This document shows, in pieces, positions 10,910-39,618 of a stretch of 64,000 bases of DNA. The translations under genes were made by a program, and so were the position numbers. Position 1 is the first letter of the stretch. Each line of letters begins with the position of its first letter. Source of the stretch: Fabrea salina (lineage: Eukaryota > Ciliophora > Heterotrichea > Heterotrichida > Fabreidae); NCBI GenBank assembly GCA_022984795.1, contig JALIHJ010000028.1, positions 186,001 to 250,000 of the forward strand, read 5' to 3'. The notes below the pieces were generated by a model. That model did no database searches. It worked only from the letters and a program-made list of their open reading frames with translations, and had not been told where the DNA came from.

Positions 10910-13900
10910 ATGGTTGCTTCTTTTATGATCATACTAGTGCTAAGTCAAGCCGCTCAAATAGAGAAAATGAGCACTCCTTTCAGGGGTAAAGTTGATCCTG
11001 CGTCTTTTTATGGGCTAAGTAGTGTGTTTTTTGAGGGGACTTTTAATGACCTTGATAGTTCTCACTATAGCGCCACAATTGGAGGGGAAATTTGCGAAAT
11101 ACTCTCTTTGAGTCAAACTGAACTGGAGTGCTTAATTCCTCCTTGGGACTCTACTGATGGGACCAGTGCTGAACTGAGAGTTGAGCACAATGGCTCTAGA
11201 ATGTATACTCGAAGAATCTGGACCATGGCAATGCCTACCCCATTATTAACCTGAACAGAAACGAGGCTTCAGCTGGGGATGATTTTCACATTTTCCAGCT
11301 CTGGGATAGGAGCAATTATGTTTTGAGTGGGTTTATAGAGAATGAGTCCTTAATACCTAAATCAGGGTGGAACCGGCGATCTTATTTTACTGAGGGTAAA
11401 GCTGAGCTTGGAAGCAATGTTCACGGAGATTCTAGAATTGAGTTCAAAGTTAACGGAAACCAAGAACCTGATATGATGTGGACGGCAGCTAGCTACACAC
11501 TTGAAGGAGAAGAGTACTTCTTCAGAACTATTGCTTCAGTAGACAGTATTTCGCATAGTGAAGGCAGCGGTTTAGGAGGCCTTGAAATAACTATTAACGG
11601 AAAGTCTTTTCCAAGTGACAGTTACAAGGATCAGAGTAGAGATCGATGGAACTAATTGCGAAGTGACCAGTGCTAGTTTCAGTAGTATCACTTGCAAAAC
11701 TGGGGCCTACTACAAGATTACTCAAGAAAGCCACTACGAAGGAAGTGCTGGGTTGTTTAGGGAAAGGTATGACTATAATGGAGTAAATTACGAATATGAT
11801 CCTGAAGACCTAGAATCAGAGGAATATATTCCCAACTCTAACTTGCATTATTCGTGGCAGAAGGGCTTTAGAATCTACGGCTACTTCAAAGCTCCAAGGA
11901 CAGGCGAATATACTTTTTATGGGAGTGTGAATAAGGATGCCAAGGTTTATCTAAGCACAGATGCTAACCCTTCAAATAAAAGACAGATTATGAATGTAGG
12001 GCCTTGGTCAATCCCTTCATTGTATTTCTTAGACAGATTCAACTCTGATAAAATAACACTATTAAAGGACCAGTTGTACTATTTAGAAATAGAGCATATA
12101 AATTGCTGTGGCATTGGATTCTTCTCACTCGGGGTAGAAATTCCAAGTGATGGGAATTCCTACAGAAACAAACTGCCTTTAGTAAAGAAGATAAGGATTA
12201 CTGGTCTGCATCCCTCAACACCTATCGAGTATAAGGGCCAAAGAAAGGATATAGGTGGACTGTAGAACTGCTAATGGAAATAACTATTACCAAAAACAAG
12301 TAGCTTCCCAATATTTCAACCTTTACGTTTATTGCAGCAAGAAACGATCTCTATGTAGTAGTCCCAGGGTACATGAATCCTCACCCAGATGACTTGAAGT
12401 TTATAACCAATACTAGTACCATACTAGATGGAACCACTCTCCATGAACCTTCAGACTCCCAGTTCTGGTTTGTGATCCCCTCTGACTTCTTGAGGACCTA
12501 CCAAACCAAGCCTCAACTCAGAGTTTGGATAGACGGCAGAGTTGCTATGTCCAAAGGCGATTCTTCTTTCCAGTACAGGGTTCCGTTAATCAGAAGCTTT
12601 TCTGAGTCTTCCAGCATTGTGACTATAAGCGGGGAGAACTTTCTGACAGACACCTCTGAACTAGAGATCAAAATAGGACCTGCAGAGTGCACAGTCAAGT
12701 CCATTTCAGACAGTTTGATAGAGTGCGAACTATACTCCTACACTCAAGGAAACTATCGACCCCAAATGACTTACAGTAGTTACTACGCTGTTCCTCTAGA
12801 CCCAAGCATAAACTACTACATTTCTCTGACCTGCACTAACTGCTTAAGGTGCTATTCTCCGTCTATTTTTGAGTGCCTAGAGTGTGAAGAGGGACAGTAC
12901 TTAGTTAATGGAATCTGCGGTGCTGTATGTCCTACAGGGTACACTTGTTCTAAGACTGGTTCTATAGGCCCTGAATTTGCTTTCGACCTTAAACTCAACA
13001 CCCTGCAGAATGTTCTCTGACGACTCAGAAAACTCAATTCCAGTACTCACAGGAATCAACAACCAATTCCATCCCTTCTTCCATGAAACTGATCCCTATC
13101 CCACTAAAGACAGGGGTTTTTATTTCAGAGGAAGTTCAGTGATGCAACTGCCTCCCTACAGGGATGTTTCAGACCCTCTACTCGTACTGGCTCCTCAATT
13201 CACAGTGAGTATGTGGAGTAGACCACTCTCTTCCTCAGGCACTCTACTCTCTAAGCAACACTCCAACCACATAAACATTCTAGAAGTCGGACTCTCAGAC
13301 TACAGTCTCTATGCAGCCCTAGACGAAACCTTCCAGTCTCCAGACAAGTTAAGCAATTACTGGAACTTAGTGAGTGTCAGAACTTCTGTTGACCAAGATC
13401 AATTCACTTTGGAGACCTACTACAACTCCACTAAGGTGCTATCAAAGAGTCTGGGAAACAACTGGTTCAAAGACTCGGATTCCAAGTTCTACTTCACAAT
13501 AGGAGCCAAGCACTCCCCCAGCAATTTCCGAGAATTCTTCACTGGATTCATTTGGCAAGTTAGAATATACAACTCGGCAATACAAATAAATAGCTTACTA
13601 CAAAACTCAAACAAGTACCTACCCCTCTGCACAATAAACCAGTTCTGGAATGGAAACCAGTGCAATGACTGTTCACACTACTGCAAGTTTGGGTGTGTAA
13701 ACAACTCTACTTGCACTCTATGCGGCAACAACCTCTGTCTTGACTGCGACTTTGAAGAGTGCAACAGTTGTGTAGACAATGCCTTCATCAACACCAGCAA
13801 AACTTGCGAGTGCAATCAAGGATACATTGAAGAGTATGGGTTCTGCAACAGGGGAAGATTTTACGCCAACTTGACTTCAAAAAACAAAGAACTTTCTTTA

Positions 13901-15368
13901 GAGTTTTCAGAAGACTTACTGACACAACTAAGTAAGGAGGACTTTGAGATAAGTTTGCGCAATACAACAATCAAGTTCAGCTATGAGATGAAGCTGGCCA
14001 GTGAAAGAAAATACAAGATTACAATGAGCTTTGACATTTATGTACCTGACAAACAACCAGTCCTTCTTGAATTCAAAACAGAAGTCACTAGTCAAAGCAA
14101 CTACTTACTAGCAAACAAGACTCTAGAAGCAGAACTCCACCAGTACGACCCTTCACTCTCAGTAATTGAAGAATCCAAGGACAGAACTCAACAAGCAATT
14201 GGAATCACAACTTTGGCGATCATCATTTTAGTGCTTTTTAGCTCAAAAGCTTCGGACTTGTGGAGGTTCATGAACATGCTTGAGATATTGTCCTACATTC
14301 CTTCAACTAATAACAAACTCACCCCTACTCTAATAGGGTTCTTTGAAGGCTTGAACGTACTAAACATTATCCCTGTTGCAATTGACTACTGCATCAAAAT
14401 AGTAACTGGAGAAGAGTCAGACTACTTCACTAAATACCTATTGAGGGAGTCAGAGCTGTTCTTGCTTAACGCTGGAGTAAGTATACTTATAATGATTGTG
14501 CTACTAGGACTATGGCCTGTAGTCTGGGCTCTTTCAAAAATCCCTTGCTGCAACAAACCATTTGGAAAACTCTTAGCAGAGTACAAGTTCAACACTTTCA
14601 CTAGGTACTGGATGCAGTGTTACTTGGACTTGTCAATTGCAGGGTTCATTCAATTGGTTTCAGTCCCCAGCATAGAGGTAGTATGGGTATTCAACTACAC
14701 TTCTGCATGTTTGGCGGTGGCACTCCTTGCAGCAACTTCAAGTGTGTTGTTTGTGTTTATCAAAAGGAACACAGAACAAATAACCAGTGAAGAAGAAGGG
14801 TTTTTGAAAAGGTGGGGAACCCTGTTTTACGAATTTGAGTGCACTGAAAACCTAAAAGCTCCCTTCTTTTACTGTGCATTCACTCTGAATAGACTCATAT
14901 TTGCAGCCAGTGTCGCAATTCTAGGAACTTATCCTTACATTCAAGCAGTTGTGGATCTGATTTGCATGATGGGAATCCTAGTTTTTGTGCTGGGTGTGAA
15001 GCCCTACCTTACCAAAGCAACCTTACGAATATCAATTCTGACAGAGATAGTGGTCAGTTTGGTGTTTTTTGTTAGTGATTTACTTTTTGCAGAGTGACTG
15101 GAGGACTTTAGACACCCTAGTAGAGAAGACAATCATATATTCAGTAGTTGGAGTAAGTGGAATTAATTCTCTAATGCCACTGTTTCGTTTGTTTGCTAGA
15201 TGCTGTTCTAAAAAGACCGACTCAGTGGCCAGAGTAATAGTTTTAGAAGGAAACACTCAGGGTGAAGTCAACCAAACTAAAGGAGACGTTAACATCACTA
15301 CCTTTAGTCCAGAGAATCAACCCAATGAAGGCCATTTTTCGATCCAGGAAGGAATTAACAGAAAATAA
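10910..15368 (+). pseudogene. Frameshifted copy of the giant IPT-PA14-ConA membrane protein family
   Basis: Colinear with the gene at 35857. A signal-like start (MVASFMIILVLSQA) is followed by an IPT/TIG domain, a second IPT, a PA14-type domain (about 11760-12140), another IPT-like stretch (12560-12760), a Cys-rich repeat, a concanavalin-A-like domain (13080-13600), Cys-rich repeats, a beta-rich stalk and the multi-pass C-terminus (from about 14200). The frame changes at about 11240, 11630, 12255, 12345, 13005 and 15095. Each time protein similarity to the paralogue resumes within a few codons, so at least six single-base events have accumulated. Substitutions in between remain fairly conservative, so decay may be recent. 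Many assembly indels in one gene would be an alternative. Confidence 0.85.
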
Positions 15369-15423
15369 TAATTTAATGCTAACTTAGTAAGTAAAGTGGC
15401 TTCAATGACTGCCAAAGTGCAAA

Positions 15424-16194
15424 GTGAAGGTTATTCACAAAAAGTTCACTAAACATCTTGGTGAGTACAAGTACGGAGTGTTCATTAGGTTCTGGATTCA
15501 GTCCTACCTTGAGATTTGTTTGGCAGTTTTGATTCAGTTGTGGAACTTCACTACTGAACCACTGGCCATTGCTAACTGGGTAGTGGGAGTGGTCTTTGGA
15601 GTATTTCTTCTAGTGTCTCCTGTTTTGGTGCTTAGGTTCATTGCTAAGAAGCCCGAACACATTACAAGACTCAGTGAAGAGTCAGCTTTTTACGGAATGT
15701 TTGGGTCCTTGTTTTACGAGTTCAGTGTTAAAGAGGGTAAGTTTGCTAGGTACTTTTACGTCTTTTTTGTACTGAGGAGACTGCTTTACTGCTTGAACCT
15801 TATGTGCATGGGTGCTTTTCCAGTAATGCAATCACTCATCAATATCTTCTTGGCTTTGGGGTCTTTAGGCTACTTAGTGGCTGTGAGACCTTACTCTGAA
15901 AGCATTCTGCAAGTTACAAACACTATCTCTGAATTGGGTTGTTTTGCAGTGTTTGGATTGGTGAACTACTTTTTGGGAGAAGACCTTAACTACGAAAAAC
16001 AAGTTGAAGAAGTTATAATCTACACTACACTAACAGTGATGGGAGTCCAAGTGCTGGCTTCTGTTCTGATCTTCTTCCAGACAATTGTTGAGTTAGTCAA
16101 GCGCAGAATGACCCGTAATAATGCAGTAGTTGAAGAAACTAAGGATAACTCCAGAGCTCTAGAGTTCTTCAGAGGAAGAAAAGTGAAAGCTTAG
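15424..16194 (+). pseudogene. Detached C-terminal membrane domain of the giant family
   Basis: An open frame of 256 codons without an ATG start in the expected AT-rich context. It begins abruptly inside the multi-pass domain (KYGVFIRFWIQSYLEICLAV) and runs to a proper TAG. It aligns with the last about 250 residues of the intact copies (compare LIRFWIQTYLDLVISC at 16609-22683), including GSLFYEF, RRLLYCLNLM and a long final pair of helices. It is closer to the C-terminus of the 26938 copy in places (FYVFFVLRRLLYCLN against FYIVFLTKRLLYSLN). It lies directly after the frameshifted copy, so a second family member once followed and lost its 5' part. Expression from an internal start cannot be excluded. 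Confidence 0.7.
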
Positions 16195-16608: not shown

Positions 16609-19600
16609 ATGCTTCATCTAGTATTGATTTGCGGGTTATTAGTTGCTGTAGCTAATAGTGCAGCATGCAACAGCTTCAGAGAATCACTAGGGTGCTATGA
16701 TTGTGCCGGTGGCTGGAAACTATTAGACAAATTGTGTGTGAAAAACTGTCCAACACTTTATGATTCTGGAACATGCAGTTTTCCAGGTGGTGATTTAAAC
16801 TTGTTTGACCTAGAGTTTTACCAAGTAACTGACACTACTGCCTCTTCGGTAGGTAGTTTCAATACTCCTGGCTCTGTCCAGTTCCAAGACATGTCTAGAA
16901 GGTCCCCTATTCCTACTAGTCAAAGAGGGTTCTACTTCGACCAGTTATCGGAGCTTACTAGCTCTGCAGGTTACATTCCAGGAATAAAGCATTCAGTTAT
17001 TTTCTGGGTAAGGCCTTTATTCCCAGGAAACCTCTTAACTATGAAAGACAGTGCTGAGACACACTATAAAATCAGTTATTCTTCTGGTACTTGGAACTTT
17101 GATTTCAGGTATTCTCATATTGAAATACAGTATAGAACTTTTGGGGATGAAGAAGTGCACTTAAGAGGATACCAAACAAAGACTATTCAAGCCTCTCAAA
17201 GTAGTGGAAGCTGGAAAAGGATCACTTTTGCCATTGATGAAGACTATATTAGCACATATAGTTGCAAATGTGGTCTTTTTGGCTGCAGCACCTGCTATAA
17301 CTATAATATCTGTCAATTCAATAGTTTTGTAGATGGTGCTTTACAAAACAATGATGAATTCAATGACTGCTGGGCAACAAGCAACGTAAACACAGGCTCA
17401 ATGGCCTGGAACATAGGCAAGATAGACTCCGAAGACAGTTTCACGGGGTTCCTCTACAGACTGCTTTTCAGAAACTCCAACAACGACCAAACTATGTCTG
17501 GTTGGTCACCTCCAACTTGTGACCTTAAAACTGAAGTAAATGCAGGCAGTTGTGACGTAGCTGAACCATGCACTCCTCCAGCTTGCATTCCATGTGACTA
17601 CAAATGTTCTGACTGTTCAAGTTTCCCTTGGCTCTGTAGAAGTGGCTCATGTGCTAACCACAGAGTAGAAGGGGTATGCATGGACACCAATCCTTCCACT
17701 TCAGGAATTCTTATAAACCAAGACTTTTCTGGTTTCCCGCCTTACGGAGACTTCAGCAGTGGAAGTGTGAGTAGCACTTACTTTCCATTTGATGGAGGAG
17801 AAGCTGATGATGTTTTGCCCATGAAGAACAGAGGAGTGTTTTACGACTCAAGCAGGTTCCTTGAAAATGACCAAGTAAAGCTATACTATAGTTTTAGCTT
17901 GAGTGTATGGGTAAGAGGTACTTCTTCGGGAAAAATACTTACTAAGGGAAACTATCTGATTGTGGAGGAGGGTAGGGTTACTTTAAAGTTGGAGGACATC
18001 TATGGAAACACCTATGACAAGCAAGTAAGTGTGACTGGGGGACTTAACACTTGGTACCACGTTGCTTATTCCTGTGAGTTTGTTTACTCTTCTGGAACTA
18101 CTTTGAAGTCTTACTTAGATAACATCCACCAAAACTCACTTTCAGAAACAGAGCTGATATTCAGAGAGCCCGGAACTGACTCCTTAGTGATAGGTACCTA
18201 TGCAAGTGGGTTCATCTACATGCTTAAGATTTGGCAGGAAGCTGTTAGTGACTACTCTTCTGACTACTGCGTTGGAGGGACCAAGAGCGACTGTTTTTGG
18301 AGTTGTGAAGTGGAGGAGTATGAAGATGACTCTGGAAACTGTGTAGCTTGTGACGGAACTTGCAGTGAAGGATGTGTGAGAGGAACTGACTGCATTCCTT
18401 GTTCTGATGACTTGTGTGATGAGTGTAGTAGTTTTGATGATGGTGCTTGCACTTCTTGTGTCTCTAATGCTTCTAGTGAGCCCAACTGCGTTTGTGACTC
18501 TGAGTTTTACAAACTAGAAAACGAATGCAAACCCTGCTACTCAGGTTGTAGTCAGTGCTCTTCTTCTGAGTATTACCAATGCTCAGCTTGTGTCTCAGGC
18601 AGTTACCTACTCTACTCCATGATGTGTGTTTCGCCTTGTCCTACTGAATATGACAACCCATCAACTACTTGTGACCTTTCTACTGAACTAGTGGTGGACT
18701 TACAGTTTTACAATGAAATCAAAGGAGACTTAGACGGGTTCAGCTACGGTACTAACTCCAACTTCTACCCTAACCTAGACACCAACGATCCCTGGCCAGC
18801 CAAAGACAGGGGTTACTACTTCCACACTACTGCTTATGCCCAGAAATCACTCCTAATTGCTCCTAAGTTCACTCTGCTGGGATGGCTCAAGCTCACTTCT
18901 GACTCAGGCACATTCATCTACAAGGGAGACAACTCAGCTGACCACAAACTCCACATTACTTTCAGTGGAGGAAGCATTTCAGTGAGCCTGACTACTGTAG
19001 ACGAAGTGGTTTCTGGGTCTGGGTCAACCGACTTAAAGGACTCCTGGAAGTACTTTGCAGTGAGTTCAGACATACTGGGAACTGGAGAAACCAAGCTTAC
19101 AGTCACCATAGACTCCACTACTGAGTTTACTGCCCAGTGCTCTGTAGCTACTTTCTTCAGTGACGAGTCTACTCATAGACTCACAATAGGAAGCGGTGGT
19201 TCTTCTTTTGAGGGATTTTTGTTGAGTTTAAAGGTGTTCCAGGCACCTGACAAAACAGGCACTGGCTACCCCTTCTCAGGTTCAAGGAGTGACTGCCCTA
19301 TTGATGAGTTTCCAGACTCAGGAGGGTGTTCTAGTTGTGTGGGATGCTCAAAAGGCTGTGTGAGGGCAGAGCACTGTAACTTGTGCAAGGATGAACTGTG
19401 CCATAAGTGTGATACCTTTGGGACTGGATGCAGCGAATGCAAAACTAACGCTGGTGACTCCTCTGGAACTTGCCAATGTGATACAGGCTACTTCAAAGCC
19501 TTGGATGAGTGTGCTGAGTGCACTACCAACTGCGATGCTTGCACTTCTTCGGATTTCCATCATTGTACCGATTGCAGTTCTGGTTACTTGTTGATTGAAG

Positions 19601-22600
19601 GAGTATGTCACTCATTCTGCCCTACAGGCTACTCTGATGTGTCTGGAACTTGCACGACCTCAGACAGCTTTGTGTTCCACCTACAACCTCACGCCATTCA
19701 AGACACTGTCACAGACACCCAATCATCCATTCCAGTGCAGACAGGCAAAGACACTTCCTTCTACCCCACTGCAGACTCCACAGATCCTATTCCTACCAAA
19801 GACAGAGGGTATTACTTCACAGGCACTTCCTACATGCAACTACCGCCTTACACTGGAACTGCTTCTCCTTTGTTGGCCCTGGGACCTGAATTCACTCTGA
19901 CAATGTGGATTAGACCTGTTAGCCAAGGCACTCTCATCTCCAAGCAAGAAGACTCTTCTACTGTGCCTACTAAACTTGAAGTTGGGCTATCTTCCATGAA
20001 GACTTACGTAGACCTAGACATAACTGGGTACACTACTCAGACAGATACTCAAGCACTTACTGAAGGATGGAACTTCTTAGCTGTGAAGACTTACCTAGAC
20101 TCTGCAGTTCCTGAGTTCAAACTCTCTTTGTTCTTAAACAACACTGAAACACTCCAGCACAGCTTAGGAGAAAACTGGTTGGAGGACCTAGAGTCAGGGT
20201 TCTTGTTTACAATAGGAGCCAAACACTCAGACCAAAGCACACTTACCAACTTCTACACTGGGTTTATCTGGGAAGTAAGAATTTACAACTCAAACAAAGA
20301 TCCTACTACTCTACTGGAGTCCTCCAGCTGTGACTTCTGCAGTTTCTGTCCTATAGACAACCAAGATCAATGCTTACCCAACTGCCTGATCACTGACTTC
20401 TGGAATGGAAGTGAGTGTGTGGAATGTGACTCTGAGTGTACAAGTGGATGCTCTAGACAACACACTTGCAACTTGTGTATAAACTCCTTGTGCATAAACT
20501 GCAGCAGCTTTGAAGAAGGAGACTGTAGTGAGTGCAAAGCCAATGCCTCTGGAAACCCTTGTGTATGCGACCCAGGCTATGGTTTGGAGCGACTCAATTT
20601 AACTTGTGTCGAGTGTGGGCCTTTGAATTATGCCCAAGTAGTAAACAACAGGTGTTACTGTGTAGATGGCTACTTCAATAGGGACTCTAAGGGAATAAAC
20701 TGCCAGCCATGCTCTTTAGAATGCTCTCAATGCTCTCCTTTGGACCTAGACTGTGTAGACTGCCAAGTAAAAAACTCAGTTAGGGATTCTTCTGGAGACT
20801 GCGTGTGTCCACTACACTCAAGCTTTTCAAATCAAGAGTGTGTATGTCAAGAAGGTTACTTTTTAGACCAAACTGTTCCTGAATGCAATCAGTGCCACTA
20901 CTCCTGCAAAACTTGTTCAGGTCCAGAATCCACGGACTGCCTTTCATGCGAAGATTCTTACCTACACGAAGACGGAACCTGTGGACCTTGTCCTGAGGGA
21001 ACATACTTAGAACGAACTGAGTGTTTAGAATGCATGGACTTATGTGCAACTTGTTTAAGTGGAAAAGAATGCACAGAGTGCACAGAAAACGCATCATTTA
21101 ACTCAAGCAACACCTGTGAGTGTGACCAAGGCTACTTCTCCCAAAGCGGGTTCTGCGAAAGACAACTATTCTACGCCAACTTAACTGCAGCAGAAGACAA
21201 CACTCTGACTCTAACCTTCTCTGAAACTCCTACTTCCCAACTAACACCAACTGACTACAACATCTACCTGCAAAACAAGTCAATTGAGTTCAGCTACTCA
21301 AAGAGGGATGACTACAAGTTTGAGCTCAGTTTCCAGTCTTACGTGTCTGAAGGAGAACTGGCCTACTTAGAGTTTACTAATGCTTCTGGAGTAGTTAGTG
21401 AAACCAACTCTATTCTGGAAGACAAAGTACTGCAAGTAAAACTCTACGAGTATGATCCATCAGTTGAAGAAGCCAAACAAGCTGAAAGCCTAGCTCGAAC
21501 TACAGCCTTTACAGGAATAGCAGTATCTTTAGTGCTAGTTCCGTTCAACCCCAATCCTTCAGGACTGTGGGCTACTATGAACACTATCCAAATACTGACC
21601 TACATTCCTCTCACTACCAACCCACTGACTCCTAAAACCAAGGGATTCTTGAAAGGGCTCAATACAATGAAAAGCAGCATTCCCAATGCCTTTGACTTGC
21701 TTAACTTCGAAAGCAGGCCTAACCCCAACCACTACTCCAAAGACTACGGGTATGAGTCTTACTTGTTTCTGGAAAACTCAGGAACAGAATTAACCATACT
21801 CATGTTTCTACTAGCTCTGTGGCCTGTCATCTTGGTACTCTCCAAAATACCCAAGATCAAAGGAGTCTTTGAGAAACTGCTGGCCAAGTACAGGTATGGA
21901 GTCCTTATTCGGTTTTGGATTCAAACTTACTTGGACTTGGTTATCTCTTGTTTGATTCAGCTCTACTCAGTAGACTCAATATCAAGAGAAGCAATCAACA
22001 ACTTCATTCCAGCAGTTGTAGTGGGGGTACTCCTAGCAGTCACTCCAGGTGCAATAGTAGTTTTCTGCAGAAAGAACCAAACTACAATCAAGGAATCGCA
22101 ACAGGAGTCAGAGGAATCAGAGGAACCACAAGAATCAGAGGCCTACAAACGCTACAAGCCATTTATTGGTGAGTTCGACTGCACAGAAAGATTCGAAGCT
22201 AGTTACACCTACGCTTTGTTCACTCTCGTGAGACTACTGTTGGGAGCCAGTTTTATCTTCCTGACAGAGTTTCCCTACACACAAGCCACCATCAACACTG
22301 TTCTGATGGCTGTGTTTGCTGTGTTTCTGTTAGTAGTGAGGCCCTACAAAAACAAGCTCCAGCAACTAATTTCTGTGATTGTGGAAACAGGAGTGTTTAT
22401 TGTCTACTTAGTTTCTATGTACTTCTTGAGTGACTGGGGAGGCAAGCACAAAGCAGAGGAAGCAGTGATCTGCCTAGCCTACGGATCCATTGGACTGCGA
22501 ACTCTGTTTGTTGCTGCAAGCGCACTACTGAATATTGCCAATTTCGTCAAGAAGAAGTGCCAGAAGACTCGAGTAGTTCCAGTTGAAACCCGATTCCATA

Positions 22601-22683
22601 GCATTTTTGAGAGTCGAATGCACCCAAGCCTACAAGAAAACTCACTTTTTGTCAAGACTGAGCAAGTCCAGAGTCCTAATTAA
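16609..22683 (+). CDS. Giant cysteine-rich multi-pass membrane protein with four ConA-like domains
   Basis: A 2024-residue protein with a signal peptide (about 1-18, LHLVLICGLLVAVANSA). Four concanavalin-A/LamG-like domains follow, each opened by a (D/Q/N)RG(Y/F)YF-type motif (for example DRGYYFHTTAY, DRGYYFTGTSYMQLPPY) and containing a WVR/WIRP strand and an (L/V)KVFQ or VRIYNS end strand. Between them and up to about residue 1520 lie furin/EGF-like Cys repeats (CxxC spaced, many C..C..C..GY). A beta-rich stalk (about 1520-1620) leads to eight to ten hydrophobic helices (about 1630-1990) and a short cytosolic tail. The frame is uninterrupted. The C-terminal domain (LWATMNTIQILTYIPL, FRKN-like loop, FLSDWGGKHKAEE) is nearly the same as in the 35857 copy. 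I infer a surface receptor, adhesin or mechanosensor; the ligand is unknown. Confidence 0.85.
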   Translation: MLHLVLICGLLVAVANSAACNSFRESLGCYDCAGGWKLLDKLCVKNCPTLYDSGTCSFPGGDLNLFDLEFYQVTDTTASSVGSFNTPGSVQFQDMSRRSPIPTSQRGFYFDQLSELTSSAGYIPGIKHSVIFWVRPLFPGNLLTMKDSAETHYKISYSSGTWNFDFRYSHIEIQYRTFGDEEVHLRGYQTKTIQASQSSGSWKRITFAIDEDYISTYSCKCGLFGCSTCYNYNICQFNSFVDGALQNNDEFNDCWATSNVNTGSMAWNIGKIDSEDSFTGFLYRLLFRNSNNDQTMSGWSPPTCDLKTEVNAGSCDVAEPCTPPACIPCDYKCSDCSSFPWLCRSGSCANHRVEGVCMDTNPSTSGILINQDFSGFPPYGDFSSGSVSSTYFPFDGGEADDVLPMKNRGVFYDSSRFLENDQVKLYYSFSLSVWVRGTSSGKILTKGNYLIVEEGRVTLKLEDIYGNTYDKQVSVTGGLNTWYHVAYSCEFVYSSGTTLKSYLDNIHQNSLSETELIFREPGTDSLVIGTYASGFIYMLKIWQEAVSDYSSDYCVGGTKSDCFWSCEVEEYEDDSGNCVACDGTCSEGCVRGTDCIPCSDDLCDECSSFDDGACTSCVSNASSEPNCVCDSEFYKLENECKPCYSGCSQCSSSEYYQCSACVSGSYLLYSMMCVSPCPTEYDNPSTTCDLSTELVVDLQFYNEIKGDLDGFSYGTNSNFYPNLDTNDPWPAKDRGYYFHTTAYAQKSLLIAPKFTLLGWLKLTSDSGTFIYKGDNSADHKLHITFSGGSISVSLTTVDEVVSGSGSTDLKDSWKYFAVSSDILGTGETKLTVTIDSTTEFTAQCSVATFFSDESTHRLTIGSGGSSFEGFLLSLKVFQAPDKTGTGYPFSGSRSDCPIDEFPDSGGCSSCVGCSKGCVRAEHCNLCKDELCHKCDTFGTGCSECKTNAGDSSGTCQCDTGYFKALDECAECTTNCDACTSSDFHHCTDCSSGYLLIEGVCHSFCPTGYSDVSGTCTTSDSFVFHLQPHAIQDTVTDTQSSIPVQTGKDTSFYPTADSTDPIPTKDRGYYFTGTSYMQLPPYTGTASPLLALGPEFTLTMWIRPVSQGTLISKQEDSSTVPTKLEVGLSSMKTYVDLDITGYTTQTDTQALTEGWNFLAVKTYLDSAVPEFKLSLFLNNTETLQHSLGENWLEDLESGFLFTIGAKHSDQSTLTNFYTGFIWEVRIYNSNKDPTTLLESSSCDFCSFCPIDNQDQCLPNCLITDFWNGSECVECDSECTSGCSRQHTCNLCINSLCINCSSFEEGDCSECKANASGNPCVCDPGYGLERLNLTCVECGPLNYAQVVNNRCYCVDGYFNRDSKGINCQPCSLECSQCSPLDLDCVDCQVKNSVRDSSGDCVCPLHSSFSNQECVCQEGYFLDQTVPECNQCHYSCKTCSGPESTDCLSCEDSYLHEDGTCGPCPEGTYLERTECLECMDLCATCLSGKECTECTENASFNSSNTCECDQGYFSQSGFCERQLFYANLTAAEDNTLTLTFSETPTSQLTPTDYNIYLQNKSIEFSYSKRDDYKFELSFQSYVSEGELAYLEFTNASGVVSETNSILEDKVLQVKLYEYDPSVEEAKQAESLARTTAFTGIAVSLVLVPFNPNPSGLWATMNTIQILTYIPLTTNPLTPKTKGFLKGLNTMKSSIPNAFDLLNFESRPNPNHYSKDYGYESYLFLENSGTELTILMFLLALWPVILVLSKIPKIKGVFEKLLAKYRYGVLIRFWIQTYLDLVISCLIQLYSVDSISREAINNFIPAVVVGVLLAVTPGAIVVFCRKNQTTIKESQQESEESEEPQESEAYKRYKPFIGEFDCTERFEASYTYALFTLVRLLLGASFIFLTEFPYTQATINTVLMAVFAVFLLVVRPYKNKLQQLISVIVETGVFIVYLVSMYFLSDWGGKHKAEEAVICLAYGSIGLRTLFVAASALLNIANFVKKKCQKTRVVPVETRFHSIFESRMHPSLQENSLFVKTEQVQSPN

Positions 22684-22738: not shown

Positions 22739-22744
22739 GTCTAG

Positions 22745-23125: not shown

Positions 23126-23133
23126 GATTTAAA

Positions 23134-29900: not shown

Positions 29901-32853
29901 CTCCACTGGCTACCACCATGAAACTCCTAGTCAGACCTGCACTCTATTGGACGACTTTGTGTTCCACTTAAAACCCCAAAGAATAGAAGACACTGTAGAG
30001 GACCTTAGAAACGGCATTCAGGTTTTAACTGGGACAAACAACAACTTTTACCCGAACTACTCACCACAAGACCCACTAGCTGCAAAAGACAGAGGCTACT
30101 ACTTCAAGGGCTCCTCTGTGATGAGTGTTCTGAATTCTGATTTATTCATAGCCCCCGAGTTTACCATTACTTTTTGGGTGTTTCCACAAAACTCCCACTC
30201 AGCTATTTTTGCAAAGCATGACTCAAGCTACACAACCAAACTTAGACTTGGAATAGACCATTACAAACCTACCATTGACCTAGAAGCAGTCACTACATTA
30301 AGCAATTCTGGCTTAACAGCCTTGTCAAGCAGTTGGAACTTCTTAGCCTTCAGAGTATTTTTTGACTCAAACTCAGACTACCAAGTGGAGTTCTATGTAA
30401 ATGACACCCTTTCTACGTCAACACCCACTTCAAATAACTTCTACCTTGATGAGAGCAGCTCCTATGCTACAATTGGGGCAGAGCATGCTTCTTCAACAAC
30501 ATTCACTAACTTCTTTAAAGGCTTCATTTGGGAAATAAGAGTCTATAACTCGCCTGTAGACCCCTTAACTCTTTTAGGAACTAACTGCACCTTATGTTCT
30601 TTCTGTCCACTAGACAGTGAATGCCTACCAACTTGCTCTATTGACCAGTTTTGGACTGGAGAGACTTGTGAAAGCTGCGATCCTGTTTGCACCGAAGGAT
30701 GTGTTAGAAAAGGCACCTGCAACCTGTGTCAAAACAATCTTTGCAGTGACTGCACTGGCTACTTAGAAGAAGACTGCTTGAGTTGTGTTCCAGGCATAAG
30801 CGGACCTCCTTGTGTCTGTGATGAAGGACTAGGCTTTGATGCCCAGCAACTGAGTTGTATTGTTTGTGACTCTTCAGCTGAACAAGAACTGTTTGAGGGT
30901 GTTTGTGTGTGCAATCAAGGTTTCTACAACTCCAACCCCTTTGTAATAGACTGTCAGCCCTGCGCTCTGGACTGTACACAGTGTTCTCCTCCCCAACTCA
31001 ACTGTGTGAACTGTCTTCCTAGGTACTCCTACATGGGTTCTTCAGGAGACTGTGTTTGTCCTAAGCAATCTAACTTCAACGGAGCAGAGTGTGTGTGTGA
31101 AGACGGTTATTACATGGAGTACACTCAAGACTTAGGCAACCCCCAGTGCAGTGAATGCCACGAATCCTGCAAAACCTGCTTTGGGCCTTTAGACACTCAG
31201 TGCACTTCTTGCAACTCAGGAGCCTTGAAAGATGGTTCTTGTGGGCCCTGTGGAGAGAGTTACTACGCCAACTTAGACAGTTACTGTGCTACTTGCAAGA
31301 ACCTGTGCAAAGTGTGCACAAGCTACTCTGACTGCTTAGAGTGTGTAGAAAATGCTTCCTTTGAGTCAGAACAAGAATGTGGTTGTGAGCCAGGCCACTT
31401 AGAAGAGAATGGAAAGTGTCTGCCTAACTACTTCTATGTAAGTTTGTCAGTTGACTACAACAACGTGCTGCACCTAAGTTTCAGCAGCAACCTAACTGAG
31501 CAACTCACTGAAGAAAAACTTTCAGTAAAGATAGAAGATGACACCCTAGCACTCTCTGTGAAGAGTTTAGTAGGCAACAGCAGCTTTGCAGTAAGGCCCC
31601 TTATGAAGGAAGAGGTCCAAAACGACCAAGCAGTAACAATTACCTTTGAAGAACTGATTCTAAGCACAAGCAATGAAATGCTGTTCAACCAAAGTGCTGA
31701 AGGTTACTTGCAAAAACAAAACCCTGACTTAATCACAGAACAAAAGGCTAGAAGAACAGCAGAAGCTGTAGCTACTATTGGTTTGGGAGCATCTGTAGCA
31801 GCCAACCTTATTAACTTCAACCCATCTACCTTTTGGTCTTTAGTGAGTGTGCTGCAAGGCTTAACTTATGCTCCAGTGACCAACAACAGACTCACTCCAA
31901 AACTCAAAGGCTTCTTCAGAGGCCTGAACCCCTTTGAGCAGTGTCCTAATATATTTGAGTGGGTTTTTGGAAGCTACTCCAACAAGCACTCTAGGTCAAA
32001 GAGTTACGGTTTCAGCAGTGGTTTGTTTTTAGTGAACTACGGAAAAGTGGTTACTGCTTTGCTAGGAGTACTCGTTCTATGGCCCCTTAGCAGTTTGGGG
32101 TCTGTGTTTTCTTCTGGGTACCTTAAACAGAAGTTAAATAAACTGACTCAGCAGTTCAACTTAGGAGTGTTTCTAAGGTTCTGGCTAGTGGGCTACCTAG
32201 ATATGTGCATGGCTTGCATAGTTCAACTCTACTCAATTGGTGAAGAAGGTTTTGGAGCAGTTTTAAACTCACTTTTGGCTTTGTTAGGAGTTGCTTTGGC
32301 CTTGCTTACTCCTTTAGGGACTTACAGGTTCCTTACCCAGAACTCTTCAAGAGTCCAAAGCACAAGTGACAGGGCTTTTTACAAAGTTTGGGGTTCTCTG
32401 TACTACGAGTTTAAACTTAAACCCTCAGCCAAGTACTTCTACATTGTGTTTCTGACTAAAAGACTCCTGTACTCCCTAAACGTTATGCTTCTCGGCAGTT
32501 CGCCCTGGGCCCAAGCAGTTATTAATGCAGTGCTGATGCTGAGTTACTTCTTGTACGTTGCTTTGGTTGCACCCTACAGTGACAAGTTTCTGCAACTTGT
32601 AAATAGTTTCACTGAACTAGGAGTGGCACTTATTTACGGGTGTCTTTTGTGCTTGGTTGCAGACGACCAAGGAGACCACCTCTACGAACTAATAGTGATT
32701 TACTCTGGAATGTTTTTGGTGTTAGTTCAGTCACTAGCTTCCTGTGTTATTTTCTTTGCTACTCTGTCTAAGACCCTTAAAGTCTCAGGAAGCAAGCTAC
32801 TCACGGAAGCAAGGGTGTTTCCCAGCTATCCCAGCATAAGTTTTTATGATTAA
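26938..32853 (+). CDS. Giant cysteine-rich multi-pass membrane protein, second intact copy
   Basis: A 1971-residue paralogue of the 16609 gene with the same order of parts. A signal peptide (about 1-16, VACWFLIYLPVVLGG) precedes four concanavalin-A-like domains opened by QRGYYFNKESS, GRGAYYNYEKF, LRGYYFNTESK and DRGYYFKGSSV. These are interleaved with Cys-rich spacers, followed by about six furin/EGF-like repeats to about residue 1500, a beta-rich stalk, and eight to ten membrane helices from about residue 1607. The C-terminal membrane part is much more divergent from the 16609 and 35857 copies than those two are from each other, so this is an older duplicate. The start context is AACTATAATAAAATG. 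No frame break is seen. Function is probably surface recognition or sensing. Confidence 0.85.
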   Translation: MFVACWFLIYLPVVLGGAFCSDVGACTSCDGGYRLLNGVCLKKCPYGCTDDGSSCSGCPADVFDLKFYDQTDPHLQSIDFNNDGTEDFVQTTDFSNTGLVSRTDPTPTKQRGYYFNKESSLESVSEFIPGLDNSLIFWVWIRNQVNSRFITMADSREHYWIEKLQWGAWRFRTKHTKISDITYNNGENIQFPGDFDMWEKLEFSAHQTSYDSCRWKGFHNGNEKRDRSKGDCCFSYQFDFSPTLARWTIGKKDGQDGFEGYLYRIVFRNSNPGIANENPNSSLFPDPPICDNECSECYEDPWICNENKCNSGPNVQGICMFDCPYGFDCTTYMTSLSTIPVVDENFNQDPSIYNKFQSGANSATHHPDTSPEEDDVIPLEGRGAYYNYEKFLRSKNQVYLHHTFSIKLWVYRISGTVMKKESELVINGSGMTLKLQDVMGDFDKATVGVSIPQDSWAEIGFTCKFSLVETTLKSYIDGSHENTHTVPDMIFRQTKFMHFSIGGFEGEGIVYELKVWQNSVDSVLSSASTPPTVCPYYKIYPGCGGSCTSACTVPLNPDTLTHQSGVYDTCIDVAPNNKKYLCVQPPALTIPTCPTGCKQCHLNQYNDCNKCMSGYFLLYGFMCVEQCPTGLVMNIFKRECQYEDDGIIVGERLALEAHFNNLIKKHPSFHFGGNWTPGSNGDPYPAKLRGYYFNTESKITKSFLFGPQFTVLGWVRLKSSSGVLVNKGHTEPLLKFTSNKLRARVEGVGSVDGYSDLRDVWSYFSVSAEILNDGRTKLVLMVNNVKEDEYTSSGLAFFADLEDYTHTLVLGGPGPTSFEGFLWSIRIYNIHGMESEGFSTTGCPSECFGFCPTELICPSDCDFKYYPEGTGCSPCKDTCINGCVRSENCILCDDDLCEQDMCDYFSFQDLDSNIVCGECKSNAVPAPPAAPTAKCECNTGYYKDPTDSSCSACHTNCYSCTSSEINKCTNCTAGYLLINGICTNSSTCSTGYHHETPSQTCTLLDDFVFHLKPQRIEDTVEDLRNGIQVLTGTNNNFYPNYSPQDPLAAKDRGYYFKGSSVMSVLNSDLFIAPEFTITFWVFPQNSHSAIFAKHDSSYTTKLRLGIDHYKPTIDLEAVTTLSNSGLTALSSSWNFLAFRVFFDSNSDYQVEFYVNDTLSTSTPTSNNFYLDESSSYATIGAEHASSTTFTNFFKGFIWEIRVYNSPVDPLTLLGTNCTLCSFCPLDSECLPTCSIDQFWTGETCESCDPVCTEGCVRKGTCNLCQNNLCSDCTGYLEEDCLSCVPGISGPPCVCDEGLGFDAQQLSCIVCDSSAEQELFEGVCVCNQGFYNSNPFVIDCQPCALDCTQCSPPQLNCVNCLPRYSYMGSSGDCVCPKQSNFNGAECVCEDGYYMEYTQDLGNPQCSECHESCKTCFGPLDTQCTSCNSGALKDGSCGPCGESYYANLDSYCATCKNLCKVCTSYSDCLECVENASFESEQECGCEPGHLEENGKCLPNYFYVSLSVDYNNVLHLSFSSNLTEQLTEEKLSVKIEDDTLALSVKSLVGNSSFAVRPLMKEEVQNDQAVTITFEELILSTSNEMLFNQSAEGYLQKQNPDLITEQKARRTAEAVATIGLGASVAANLINFNPSTFWSLVSVLQGLTYAPVTNNRLTPKLKGFFRGLNPFEQCPNIFEWVFGSYSNKHSRSKSYGFSSGLFLVNYGKVVTALLGVLVLWPLSSLGSVFSSGYLKQKLNKLTQQFNLGVFLRFWLVGYLDMCMACIVQLYSIGEEGFGAVLNSLLALLGVALALLTPLGTYRFLTQNSSRVQSTSDRAFYKVWGSLYYEFKLKPSAKYFYIVFLTKRLLYSLNVMLLGSSPWAQAVINAVLMLSYFLYVALVAPYSDKFLQLVNSFTELGVALIYGCLLCLVADDQGDHLYELIVIYSGMFLVLVQSLASCVIFFATLSKTLKVSGSKLLTEARVFPSYPSISFYD

Positions 32854-33751: not shown

Positions 33752-33873
33752 CTAGAGTCCGGGTTGGAAGAATCTACTTTGAAAAGAAGTTCACTGACCC
33801 AGTGGCCATTGCTAACGAGTGACTAACAATGACCTTCGTCTTTATATTTCAAAGTAGTTAACTCGGACTCTAG
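33752..33873. repeat. 122-base foldback (imperfect inverted repeat)
   Basis: The left arm begins CTAGAGTCCGGGTT and continues to CTACTTTGAAA. The right arm read on the other strand begins CTAGAGTCCGAGTT and continues to CTACTTTGAAA. The inner parts also pair partly (GGCCATTGCTAAC with GTTAGTCATTG-like text on the opposite strand), so the whole could fold into one long hairpin. No clear target duplication flanks it. It may be a MITE-like foldback element or a hairpin RNA source. Confidence 0.6.
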
Positions 33874-33888
33874 GAGACTTGACTTATT

Positions 33889-34137
33889 ATGAAGTTCACT
33901 AAGAAAACCCAGCATGCAGACTGGGAAGGGGTTCTTGGTGATGGGAACTGGCATTCTATATCATTTGGGTCTGCTTTTACTGAGACTCCTGCTTTGCTAG
34001 CTTTTATACAAACCAAGAACAATGAAAGAGTCAACATTAAAGTGAGGAATGTTGACTCAGCAATCCAATCAATACTTAAGAACTCATTCAAGAGAAGTAC
34101 GGACTGCAGTACCATAGCTGACACTCTACTCAGTTAA
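33889..34137 (+). CDS. Small H-type-lectin-like protein or fragment
   Basis: An 82-residue frame from an ATG in the expected context (CTTATTATG). The middle, WHSISFGSAFTETPALLAFI and then NERVNIKVRNVDS, follows the beta-strand pattern of H-type lectin domains (F..pF...P.v.., then R....v.nv). The last 25 residues do not fit the domain, so the gene may be truncated. There is no signal peptide. It lies at the edge of a region of coding relics and could itself be decaying. Family call is tentative. Confidence 0.4.
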   Translation: MKFTKKTQHADWEGVLGDGNWHSISFGSAFTETPALLAFIQTKNNERVNIKVRNVDSAIQSILKNSFKRSTDCSTIADTLLS

Positions 34138-34835: not shown

Positions 34836-35240
34836 TAATTAAAGTTAAGGTAAGGTGGAAGAGTTAATAAATATGATTGTGTTGTTGCTAGGATTTTCCA
34901 AGCTATAGCTGTGAGTGTGAGTGAAATAGCCACTCCGAACAAGGGAACTACTGATCCCAAACATTCTAAGTGATTAGTAGCCTCTACTCGTTTGGGGAGT
35001 TTGGAGATGGCCTAGATCCCAGCAACTACCAAGTGAAGGTAGATGCAAGGGACTGAAAAATACTCTCTGTTAAAGCAGATGAGATTGAGTGCCTCACTCC
35101 TTCTTGGGATGGGAGTGATGCAAATAACCCTGACTTAGAAGTACTGCACAACTCTGTAGCAATACACTCAGAGAGCAGTGCTTTTGAGTGGGATTAGTCT
35201 GATCCCATAATGAGTCTGGCTTCAAGTGAAGGAGCTGAAA
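34836..35240 (+). pseudogene. 5' fragment of the giant IPT-PA14 membrane protein gene
   Basis: About 400 bases match the promoter-proximal region and first exon-like part of the gene at 35857: TAATTAAAGTTA upstream, GTTAATAAATATGATTGT at the start, GAAATAGCCACTCC, GAGATTGAGTGCCTCACTCC and the CCAAGTGAAGG-like end. The reading frame contains early stops and small indels. Homology ends about 35240, just before an AAAT-tailed repeat. The shared upstream bases show that the duplication included the promoter region. Confidence 0.75.
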
Positions 35241-35838
35241 AGCACAACAGTGATGTGCCAAGGAACTACAGGGCTCGCTAAAGTAATAATAAATAAACTT
35301 TAAGATAGAAAACAGAGCAACAAGGAAAAAACCTCGAAAAGAAGCCAAAAGCCGAAACACAACGCAAACAACCAACGGAAAGCAGCAAACACCCTAAAAC
35401 GAAACTCAAACTGAAAGCGACGACCTACTAATTCAACTCAGAGGCCTAGCGGCTTGAACTAGCTCAAATAAATAAATAAACTTGAAGATAGAAGGACTAG
35501 AAGTAGAATTTGAACCTAACAAAAACGGACAGGCGACGAAAGCCAGGACCGTCAAAAACTGGATCCCCCCGAAGGTAGAGGACCCTAACACCCTCACTAA
35601 TTAGCTAAAAGAAGAAGAAAGAAATACCGCGGAAGTAACTACTTTACATTCTATACCAGCAAGTTTCTGGCAAAAGAAGAATGTCAAAAGTGATTGCTAA
35701 TACAACCATAAGCTTCCTTGGACAATACAAAACCACATTACACCGGAGACCCAACATCGCAGTAGCAGACAAAACAAAACCCTCAAGGCTGCACAAAAGT
35801 CAACAATAACACAACTTGATCAAGTAATTAAAGTTAGG
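35241..35838. other. Repeat tails and decayed coding traces
   Basis: Holds an AAAT-tailed repeat end (35270-35296, like the end of the insert at 25716-25833), the 27-base repeat GGCTTGAACTAGCTC plus AAAT tail at 35451-35480, and broken frames on the plus strand. One of these (about 35485-35600, KIEGLEVEFEPNKNGQATKA) reads well before a stop. The text around the two tails (AAACTTTAAGATAGAA and AAACTTGAAGATAGAA) is similar, which suggests a local duplication. No intact gene. Confidence 0.45.
35451..35480 (+). repeat. Short dispersed repeat with AAAT tail, copy B
   Basis: Same GGCTTGAACTAGCTC plus AAATAAATAAATAAA as at 23097. Here it follows degraded coding sequence. Confidence 0.45.
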
Positions 35839-35856
35839 GTGGGAAGGTTAATAAAT

Positions 35857-38800
35857 ATGATTGTATTGCTATTAGAATTGTGCCAAGCCGTAACTGTCAG
35901 CGAAATAGCCACTCCTAACAAAGGAACTATTAACCCTAAAATATTCCAAGGCTTGAGTAGCTTATATTTGTTCGGGGACTTTCAAGTTGATCTGAATCCT
36001 AGCAACTATCAAGTGAAGTTGCATGGATCAGCAATCAGAGACTGCGAAATACTCTCCGTTAAAGCAGATGAGATTGAATGTCTCATTCCTCCTTGGCAGT
36101 GGAGTGATGGAAATGAGCCTAATCTGGAAGTACTCAACAATCCTTATACAACAAACCTATACAGTTATCAACTTAACTTGGGTTGGCCCGATCCACTAAT
36201 GACTCTAGTGCCAAGTGAAGGGGCTGTTGGGGATACTATTAGTCTCCATTCTTTTGCTGGAGAAGGTCATAAGGATAAAATAATCTATCTCACAGTAGAG
36301 GGTTTACAAGTTACACTTGAGACTGAATTTGTCGAAAACTCTGATCCTTACATTTTGAATGGACAAATAGGCAGCAATGTGCATGGGGATGAGAGTGTGG
36401 AATATAAACTGGATGGTGAAATAAAAGGACTATATTGGACAGGGGGATACACACTAGAGGGAAAACAATATTGGTTCAGAACTCTGGCTGCTGTAGAAGC
36501 AGTTTCAATCGACTCAAAAAACCGAACAGAAGCTACTATCACCGGCAACTCGTTTCCCAGTGACACTTCTAGAGTGGAGGTTGAAGTAAACGGGGCCAAG
36601 TGCCAAGTTACCCAAATAAGCTTCGGCATAATCAAGTGCACTGGCAACTTTTATTTTGACTCAAGAAGCTCAGACTACTATGAAGGAGGTGCAGGACTGA
36701 CCAGAGAAACTTACACTGCGGGTAATATCAGAGTCAGGAGTCAACTAGTCCAAAAAACAGTCATTCCCTCGGCAACTATTCCTACAACCATGAACAACTA
36801 CGATTCTCTGATTTACGGAGTCTTCAAGCCACTCAGGACAGGAAACCATATATTCTATACTTCTTTCAGAGGAAGTGTTAGAGTATACCTGAGCACTGAC
36901 TCCAATCCTCTCAATAAGCAAGAAATCATCAATTCAAGCGAAGAATCAGACGAGCATGTGTACTTTCTTCAAGAGAACCAGTCCGAAGCTATACTATTGA
37001 CAGCAGGAGAGTCTTACTACATAGAAGTAGAACACCACAGCTCAGGAGGGAGGAACTCGTTTTCTCTAGGAGTGGAAATGCCTGGGAATGGGCAGAGGAA
37101 CGGATTTCCTTTGATTAAGAGACTGGATTTGACTTCTCAGACTCCTTATAGCAATTATCCCTTTATTTACAAGACACAGAATAAAGAAATCACAGGATTC
37201 AACCCTGCTGGTTGTGCTGGAAAGAACTACAACCACCAAAGCGTAATAGGAAGAACTTACCTGAACTTGTATGCTTACTGCCATGGAAACTATCTTTACG
37301 CCCTCCTTCCCAGTTACATGAACCCTACTTCTCTTGACCTTAAGTTCAGACTTGACAATAACGCCCAAGTCCAAGGAGAAACTCTCCGTGAAGCCTCCAC
37401 AACTTCTCAATTCTGGTTTGTGATTCCCTCTGACTTCTTAAGAACCTACGAAACCAAGCCTCAATTCAGAGTTTGGATCGATAACAGACTAACTATGTGC
37501 AGAGGAAACTGCCAAATTCCCTGTGCTGACACCTGCTTGACTTGCTACTCTTTTTCTGAGTTTGAATGCTTGCAATGTAAAAGTGGTTACTTCTTGTTTC
37601 GAGGAATATGCATCCCTATATGCCCTACTGGCTACTCTTGCTTTTCCACTGGTTCTCAAGTTTCAGGCACTGGACTCATATTCCACCTACAACTCAACAA
37701 CACTCTTGAAGACACTGTTTACGACTCAGAAAGTTCAGTTCCAGTCCTCACGGGCACTAACAACCAGTTTTACCCCTCATTCCACCAAACTGATCCTCAT
37801 CCTGCTGGAGCAAGGGGCTATTACTTCAGGGGAACCTCACTTATGCAGTTGCCTCCTTACAACAATGTTTCAGAACCCTTAATTGTTCTAGCTCCTCAGT
37901 TTACAGTCAGTATGTGGATCCGGCCGCTTTCTTCCTCAGGGACTCTACTTTCCAAGCAGCATGCCAACTATACTAGCATTCTGGAGATTGGAATGTCAGA
38001 ATACAGTCCACATGTAAATCTCAATCAAGTATTCAGCGCCAATAAGCAAATTAACAGTTTCTGGAACTTTTTTATGATGCAAGTCTACATTAGTGGCACA
38101 GAGTCATTGATCAGGTCATACTTGAACAACACCCAAGTCATTTCAAACAGCTTAGGGAACACTTGGTTAAAGGACGCACAAAAAGACTTCTATTTCACAA
38201 TAGGTGCTAAGCACTCATTGACTTTCGAAAGCTTCTTCACTGGCTTCGTTTGGGAAGTCAGAATCTATAACTCAGTGGTAGGTCTACAAAACCTATTGCA
38301 GTACTCTAAGTGCCAAGACTGCCAGTTCTGTCCGCTAGAAAACTCAAACGAATGTCTGCCACTTTGCAATATGAACGAATTCTGGAACGGAGAACAATGT
38401 GAGCAAGATGACTCTTCAGCTGAAGAATCCAACCAAGCTGAAAGTCAAAGTCAAATTGTAGCCTTCTTAGCGGTAGTGGTATCTGGAGTGTCAGCTTTGT
38501 TCAATTCTAATCCTTCAGGGCTATGGGCTACTCTGAACACTATCCAGATACTAACCTACATTCCTCTGACTACCAACCCACTCACTCCTAGAGCCAGAGG
38601 ATTCTTCAAGGGGCTCAATGCATTGAAAAGCATGATTCCCAATGCCTTTGACTTGCTTAACTTTGAAAGCAGACCTAACCCTAACTACTACTCCAAAGAC
38701 TACGGGTACGAGTCTTACTTGTTTCTGGAAAATTCAGGAACAGACTTGACTGTACTCATGTTTCTACTAGCTCTGTGGCCTGTCATCTTGGTACTGTCCA

Positions 38801-39618
38801 AAATACCCAAGATCAAAGAAGTCTGTGAAAAACTGCTTGCCAAGTACAAGTACGGAGTCCTTATTCGGTTTTGGATTCAAACCTACTTGGACTTGGTTAT
38901 CTCTTGCTTCATTCAGCTCTAATCAGTAGACTCAACAGCAAGAGAAGTGATCAACAACTTCATTCCAGCAGTTGTAGTGGGGGTACTCCTAGTAGTCACT
39001 CCAGGTGCAATCGTAGCCTTCTGCAGAAAGAACCAAACTACAATCAAGGAATCACAACAGGAGTCAGAGGAATCAGAGGAATCAGAGGCCTACAGACGCT
39101 ACAAGTCACTCTTCTATGAATTCGACTGTACAGAGAGATTCGAAGCTAGTTACACCTACGCTTTGTTCACTCTTGTGAGACTACTGTTAGGAGTCAGTTT
39201 TATCTTCGTGACAGAGTTTCCCTACACACAAGCCACCATCAACACTGTTCTGATGGCTGTGTTTGCTGTGTTTCTGTTAGTAGTGAGGCCCTACGAAGAC
39301 AAGCCCCAGCAACTAGTCTCTGTGATCGTGGAAACAGGAGTGTTTGTGGTCTACCTAGTTGTGATGTACTTCTTGAGTGACTGGGGAGGCAAGCACAAAG
39401 CAGAGGAAGTAGTGATCTACTTAACTTATGCACTCATTGGACTGCGAACTCTTTTTGTTGCTGTGGGTGCACTCCAAAGCATAGCCAATTTCGTCAAGAA
39501 GAAGTGCCAGAAGACCCAAGTAGTCCCAGAAATAGTTGAAACCCAGTTTGAGAATACTTTCGAGACACATGATGACTCAACTCCTGCCGAAAATCGCCGA
39601 GTTAAAAGTTGCTATTAA
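35857..39618 (+). pseudogene. IPT-PA14-ConA giant-family member with one in-frame stop
   Basis: The ATG at 35857 (context GTTAATAAATATG) opens 1021 codons. The 35839 frame start is not an ATG. Order: signal-like start (about 1-12), IPT/TIG (about 15-85), second IPT (about 210-260, ATITGNSFPSD), PA14-like domain (about 275-410, with IFYTSFRGSVRVYLSTD), a Cys-rich repeat, one concanavalin-A-like domain (about 645-800) and the multi-pass C-terminus from about 860. The frame stops at 38920-38922: CTC TAA where the 16609 copy has CTC TAC. It then continues in the same frame to 39618. The IPT-IPT-PA14 start recalls fibrocystin-like proteins. It lacks the furin-like repeats present in its siblings. 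It may be a young pseudogene, a truncated functional protein, or depend on read-through. Confidence 0.8.

Follow-up and report, generated by a model that had tools for sequence, protein, structure and literature searches.

We analysed a stretch of 64,000 nucleotides from the heterotrich ciliate Fabrea salina (G000:C24:186001-250000, called the window below; the assembly comprises 18,328,466 bp in 103 contigs), which carries a cluster of genes for giant proteins with a lectin-like ectodomain and a C-terminal multi-pass membrane module. The loci were defined by six-frame reading and by tblastn searches that used family members found at other places in the genome as queries. Seven family pieces were found, all on the plus strand. 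A preliminary description of this DNA had counted six; the strand and the kinship hold, and the count does not. Locus B (16609..22683) is intact and encodes 2024 amino acids (aa) with a signal-like N-terminal helix, four ConA-like domains and Cys-rich repeats; its membrane module lies at 21469..22578. Locus C (26938..32853) is intact as well, with 1971 aa, four ConA-like domains and a module at 31738..32787 of another isotype. Locus D (35854..39618) is an IPT-PA14-ConA gene whose module (38425..39525), of the B isotype, matches that of B at 83% over 370 aa. A TAA at 38920-38922, the position of a Tyr in B, interrupts its frame, and in comparison with the related locus L014 it has lost about 82 aa and about 156 aa internally. 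Locus A (10910..15365) is a broken IPT-PA14-ConA gene with five frame changes, near 11200, near 11600, at 12262-12304, at 12970-13017 and at 15051-15094; its module occupies 14171-15076 and goes on in a different frame to 15365. We considered introns as the source of the breaks near 11200 and 11600 and rejected them, since in the base-by-base reading they look like shifts of 1-2 bases and not like introns of 15-16 nucleotides (nt). Two intact genes of about 2000 residues, one gene with a single stop and one with multiple frameshifts had been proposed before, and all are confirmed. The fragments number three instead of two: a C-terminal one with a different membrane-module isotype (15391..16191; 90% over 264 aa to L034 on contig C77), an N-terminal one of the H-lectin type (33769..34059; 43% to residues 41-161 of L015) and an N-terminal one of the IPT-PA14 type (34849..35263; 69% to L017 over 93 aa). 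As expected, two intact genes beside decayed ones fit birth-and-death turnover.

Using a profile built from the family, we counted four ConA-like domains in B (the first split in two pieces), four in C, one in D and six in L016. D has PA14, TIG and Laminin_G_3 at the Pfam cut-offs. By hydropathy, B and D are each predicted to have a single N-terminal helix and eight helices at the C-terminus; for C, the cut-off used gives one and six. The two ectodomain types recognised earlier, four ConA-like domains in B and C and the IPT-PA14 arrangement in D, are thus present, and the lectin-like extracellular parts, the signal-like N-terminus and the multi-pass C-terminus are supported by Pfam, the family profile and hydropathy. 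The single shared membrane domain of the preliminary description applies to B and D, but the module of C shows 33% identity to the B/D type and is a separate isotype.

The membrane module is present at no fewer than 130 loci on 56 contigs. This census is the union of four single-protein genome searches (with the modules of B, C, L039 and L038), each of which scored the best 112-119 of 165-183 candidates, and the copy counts are lower bounds; 129 loci were typed by hand, and C was added to give 130. Their open frames reach at least 1,000 aa in 101 cases, 700-999 aa in 14 and less than 700 aa in 15, and sum to 2.9% of the genome; where the frame is short, the gene may be split and need not be a pseudogene. 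Of 42 pairs of family neighbours within 8 kb, 37 share a strand (p 4e-7) and five lie on opposite strands. At a linkage distance of 20 kb, 129 copies fall into 76 groups, the largest of five, and the linked neighbour pairs number 53, where 17 would be expected at random if the genome is treated as one line and contig ends are ignored. The preliminary description had opposed its reading to scattered singletons of fixed architecture; 46 of the groups are indeed singletons, but the architecture varies. No subtelomeric enrichment was found on contigs of at least 120 kb, where 19 of 81 copies lie within 25 kb of an end against 18.5 expected. The other 49 of 130 copies lie on 21 contigs below 120 kb, a count from which no enrichment is read because copy-free small contigs are left out of it. 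At the four contig starts examined, (CCCTAACA)n stands on C24 and C99 and is absent from C87, and C69 opens with N; the excerpted text of PMC9942806 reports the same telomere repeat in the heterotrich Blepharisma. Two equal-scoring modules lie on opposite strands of one contig (C75:4138-5148 and C75:66633-67643), possibly as an inverted duplication or an assembly effect.

To compare ectodomains with modules, we used 30 stretches of up to 10 kb, picked mainly among the best matches to B and so not a random sample. Together with the window they contain 38 module-bearing frames, one locus being present twice (L018 = L029_7342). With D added there are 39 module rows and 38 distinct modules, which, with the C-terminal fragment at 15391..16191, are all that was read of the at least 130 copies. 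At 70% identity the modules form 15 clusters. Identity is 70-99% inside isotypes, and between clusters its median is 36% and its maximum 66%. The largest cluster, that of B, has 12 distinct loci and unites four- and six-ConA genes (B, L016, L020) with IPT-PA14 genes (D, L014, L017, L019, L022). We have thereby shown that one membrane-module isotype bears several ectodomain kinds. The preliminary description, which saw ectodomains swapped onto a constant module, was right that parts are exchanged and that one module bears different ectodomains, but the modules fall into 15 clusters and not into one. Twelve genes have a complete IPT-PA14 module and give 66 pairs, in which ectodomain identity and module identity are uncorrelated (rho 0.02, p 0.88). 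Ten of these pairs are strongly discordant: five reach no more than 45% identity in front but 85% or more behind, and the other five show 74.5% or more in front against 50% or less behind, by thresholds chosen after the matrix was seen. Three module isotypes are clades with support of at least 100/99 in the module tree. The ectodomain tree rejects them in the approximately unbiased test (p 0.00015, 0.0015 and 0.00013), and the reverse test gives p 0.00005.

Synonymous divergence (dS) changes just as abruptly within single pairs. In L027/L028 it is 0.125 in the module and saturated in the ectodomain, and in L029/L034 it is 0.085 and 2.84, respectively. L014/L029 shows the reverse, with 0.46 in the ectodomain and 1.88 in the module. 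The near copy of locus C, L031 on contig C23, has exchanged blocks with it: dS is 0.016-0.03 in aa 605-900 and from 960 to the end, and 1.49 in aa 5-245, 0.14 in aa 245-540, 1.22 in aa 540-605 and 0.28 in aa 900-960. No similarity was found in the flanks of these two genes (2.7 kb before and 1.1 kb behind), and on this ground we rejected allelic haplotypes as the cause of the pair. Two comparison pairs are even throughout: L014/L017, alike in both parts, has a dS of 0.20-0.41, with the front about twice the back, and P0003/L036 has 89-90% identity across all three segments. The breaks are sharp. They lie near residues 540, 600-660, 840-900, 960, 1200 and 1440, differ by pair, and for the most part coincide with a module edge or with the Cys-rich linker ahead of the stalk. 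Near domain borders, dS within a pair leaps from roughly 0.1 to saturation; constraint on the protein cannot explain this, and different coalescence times can. For the genes and pairs read, the ectodomain and the membrane module have separate histories. This shows that non-allelic copies located on different chromosomes have traded blocks, through ectopic recombination or gene conversion, and that the breaks sit at domain borders or close to them. The process is an exchange among dispersed copies. Positive selection was not seen: all defined ratios of nonsynonymous to synonymous divergence (dN/dS) are at most 0.62 in the pairs and blocks computed, and the word "diversifying" in the preliminary description, taken in that sense, finds no support.

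The C-terminal regions of B and C served as queries for relatives in a set of 5.8 billion proteins. Among about 8,000 candidates scored for each query, seven were found with B and one with C, and these were compared only against the family frames read in this genome. P0006 matches L042 at 82-89%, and P0001 matches L023 at 67% in front and 93% behind. The front of P0008 is nearest to L032 (82%) and its back to L033 (92%), and the three segments of P0004 have three different nearest members.

A Pfam scan of 28 members at E<=0.01, which leaves 102 loci outside, matched 18 families, among them Laminin_G_3 (20 members), TRP (17), TIG (11), PA14 (10), VSP (3), and REJ, GLEYA and H_lectin (1 each). 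The transmembrane (TM) region of the module aligns to positions of about 190-410 of the 426 in the TRP profile (PF06011), which we take to be of the fungal Pkd2/FLC type. Genome-wide, this profile has 44 matches, 28 of them over the curated cut-off, so that Pfam membership holds for part of the family; C, for example, scores 34.2 bits against a cut-off of 28.5. The preliminary description had set its reading against a membrane domain from a well-described family of known function: the TM region does match PF06011, but we know of no function for this branch. REJ has 49 matched stretches in the genome, and six of them agree in contig, strand and frame length with one of the at least 130 modules. 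About two dozen giant REJ-domain loci are not among the module matches listed and are perhaps a second large polycystin-like set. The REJ member in the scan, L038, has a weak PKD-like match; GPS and PLAT are absent from the Pfam families matched by the 28 members, L038 included. Of five genomic H_lectin matches, two stand in frames as long as that of the local module (1483 aa on C53, 1477 aa on C55), and the other three (C39, C29, C67) are no more than 4 kb from a module. The AlphaFold2 model of the B module has a predicted local distance difference test score (pLDDT) of 80.8 and a predicted TM-score of 0.78. TRP-channel structures were not in the displayed fold lists, which is not taken as evidence of a differing fold, and a sequence search of the PDB with the module gave nothing at E<=1. 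The single-sequence structure model of the IPT-PA14 part was unusable (pLDDT 35.8).

We consider it fairly probable, on balance, that this is a dispersed family of giant multi-pass mosaic proteins in which ectodomain and module have separate histories and which would act as recognition receptors. In the members read, a signal-like N-terminus precedes an ectodomain of partly carbohydrate-binding-like modules (ConA-like/Laminin-G-3, PA14, IPT/TIG; in single members REJ, an H-type lectin or furin/VSP-like Cys repeats). The ectodomain is joined by a Cys-rich and beta stalk to the C-terminal module, for which six to eight TM helices are predicted and which often scores with Pfam TRP. The putative surface placement is judged from the hydrophobic N-terminus and the hydropathy of the TM helices. 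On the cell or ciliary membrane, the proteins may recognise food, conspecifics or surface glycans. The output module, constant per isotype, would most likely be a polycystin/TRP-like Ca2+ signalling or mechanosensitive unit, and exchange would try new binding heads on a working transducer. As far as domain names can tell, the function is most likely that of a recognition receptor whose output is polycystin/TRP-like. Several observations weigh against this picture. B itself scores 27.5 bits, just below the TRP cut-off, and its module model has no confident structural match in the PDB. Where PA14 lectins are expected to carry a DD pair at the metal site, 10 of the 13 PA14 copies examined have RG (DD is kept in L019 and P0002, and P0004 has ND), which makes sugar binding of the classical Ca-dependent kind doubtful in most of them. 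In addition, the ectodomain tree joins two long branches (L019, L028), and conversion of the membrane end alone would yield much the same data.

This last alternative is the strongest, and we regard it as a serious though less probable one. Here the membrane end would be the sole mobile part: the 3' end, made up of the module, the 3' flank and the 5S gene, would be copied repeatedly, by gene conversion or as a segmental duplication, over the tails of genes that are otherwise stable. The flanks give it support. A 5S ribosomal RNA gene lies antisense 60 nt past the stop codon of B (22744..22862, minus strand), and antisense 5S genes are also found in the 3' flanks of L013, L014, L015, L017 and L021. 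Of 14 genomic 5S genes over the Rfam cut-off, eight lie antisense within 1 kb downstream of a module, two more are 3.8 kb off in the same arrangement, and four are unlinked; two of three sub-threshold remnants are linked. Chance linkage is about 0.35% per gene, although the events are not independent and the block shares descent. The block also occurs behind modules of other isotypes (L013_1, 704 nt behind, and C67:70864). Being found behind both B relatives and such genes, it indicates that the 5S gene spread jointly with part of the 3' end, and that the 5S block sometimes travelled without the module. Past the stop codon, the 3' flanks of several B-isotype genes are alike, the best pairs at 94-97% over about 180-410 nt with the 5S gene included. 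Matches between 5' flanks (about eight pairs, 73-92%, in short stretches) cross isotypes and fall among the IPT-PA14 genes L014, L017, L022, L029 and L030, as if the front of the gene were stable. The low dS within isotypes is also on its side. These flank patterns fit a tail replaced on a stable front, but the breaks inside the ectodomain do not: they lie near residue 540 in L029/L034, near 600-660 in L028/L030, and around aa 5-245 and 540-605 in C/L031. Moreover, C and L031 have no common 3' flank. L019, with the B isotype, has a remote ectodomain, and neither it nor L016 of the same isotype has a matching 3' flank among those found. If the two are orthologous, the difference between front and back in P0001/L023 hints at a kept module with a changed ectodomain.

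The family might also consist of mating-type or self-recognition proteins like MTA/MTB of Tetrahymena, which we think improbable. There, by the excerpted text of the sources, a variable type-specific extracellular segment is joined by recombination to furin-like repeats and a shared TM end (PMC3608545, PMC10901506), and by description the layout is the same here. In Tetrahymena, however, programmed somatic joining takes place at one locus, whereas F. salina has at least 130 dispersed and mutually diverged copies. The arrangement also differs from one locus with a head-to-head gene pair: the copies are spread over 56 contigs and those in the window are co-oriented, the five opposite-strand neighbour pairs within 8 kb not having been viewed one by one. 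Within isotypes, the modules of 14 out of 15 pairs are separated by a dS of 0.08-0.28, and those of the remaining pair by 0.016, so that they are distinct copies rather than a single constant exon that is joined somatically. A slightly less probable suggestion is an antigenic-variation coat like the Paramecium surface antigens, in which the bulk surface protein would come from a single copy at any one time. The size of the family, its mosaic genes and the broken copies in the window suit such a coat, but multi-pass proteins would seem poor bulk coats, dN/dS is well below 1, and the copies on contigs of at least 120 kb are not subtelomeric, unlike classical serotype genes in the excerpted text of PMC9788069. 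Least probable by our estimate is that near-identical membrane ends led the assembler to mis-join heads and tails: some modules are indeed identical or nearly so (the C75 pair scores equally, and the C and L031 modules differ by 0.8%), but in 14 of 15 within-isotype pairs they differ by about 4-13% in DNA, above usual assembler confusion, the breaks lie at differing places, and P0004 and P0008 show that mosaics also occur in relatives from other data sets.

The proposed receptor family falls into a known kind, the mosaic multigene surface family, as the parts of one gene have differing histories in the 12 genes and the pairs read. No account of it was met in a literature search at the level of titles and abstract openings, a search that did not reach the Fabrea salina genome paper. 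Its TM region resembles Pfam TRP by sequence profile, but the giant lectin-like ectodomains, the large copy number and the mosaic exchange set it apart. Polycystin-1 and REJ proteins share with it an adhesion-type ectodomain before a multi-TM TRP-like end, and REJ is in frame with the six modules mentioned above; polycystin-1, however, has 11 TM helices, whereas six to eight are predicted here, and most members lack REJ, besides the absence of GPS and PLAT from the scan. Fibrocystin (PKHD1)-like proteins likewise combine TIG and PA14 domains, but none of the 10 genomic G8 matches lies at the at least 130 module loci. Fibrocystin-like genes with TIG and G8 are present elsewhere in the genome (C69:46789-49638, C87:878-3700, C87:44667-47545, C32:219476-222091 and C53:179474-182271), with frames of up to 3359 aa and some equal domain scores, as if recently copied. 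The Paramecium surface antigens and Giardia VSP are also Cys-rich multigene surface families, and the VSP profile matches 3 of the 28 members; those proteins are single-TM or lipid-anchored, in contrast to the multi-pass module and lectin-like domains found here. The LRR (leucine-rich repeat) family of Tetrahymena is another ciliate family with extensive ectopic recombination and exon shuffling, acting there on 90-bp exon repeats and here on large domain blocks upon a membrane module (PMC6564038, excerpted text).

A broader proposal, which we put forward tentatively as unlikely, is one of combinatorial recognition: about 3% of a very compact somatic genome would consist of lectin-like heads recombined with a few polycystin/TRP-like transducers, and antisense 5S genes would serve as homology hooks that disperse and homogenise the constant end. 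No account of the 5S linkage was met in the literature search at the same level of titles and abstract openings; the linkage offers a testable mechanism for the spread of the constant end. Most of the known mosaic families of surface proteins come from parasites or belong to immune systems. Such a large family in a free-living ciliate with a very compact somatic genome would open the question of what drives combinatorial recognition beyond host-parasite conflict, and the loci read yield a concrete list of candidate heterotrich recognition receptors with their module isotypes.

Genes of other kinds lie between and beside the family loci; they include one for a TPR protein, on the minus strand, and an INTS2-like piece. 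The part of the TPR-protein gene at 24300-24612 recurs mostly at about 77-84% identity, with many matches near contig ends, and may belong to a separate subtelomeric gene family. The segment 25819-26884, which contains the INTS2-like piece, is 99% identical to C56:69489-70554, directly 3' of another family gene, and is a recent segmental copy. At 25778-25819 stands a dispersed repeat of 42 nt.

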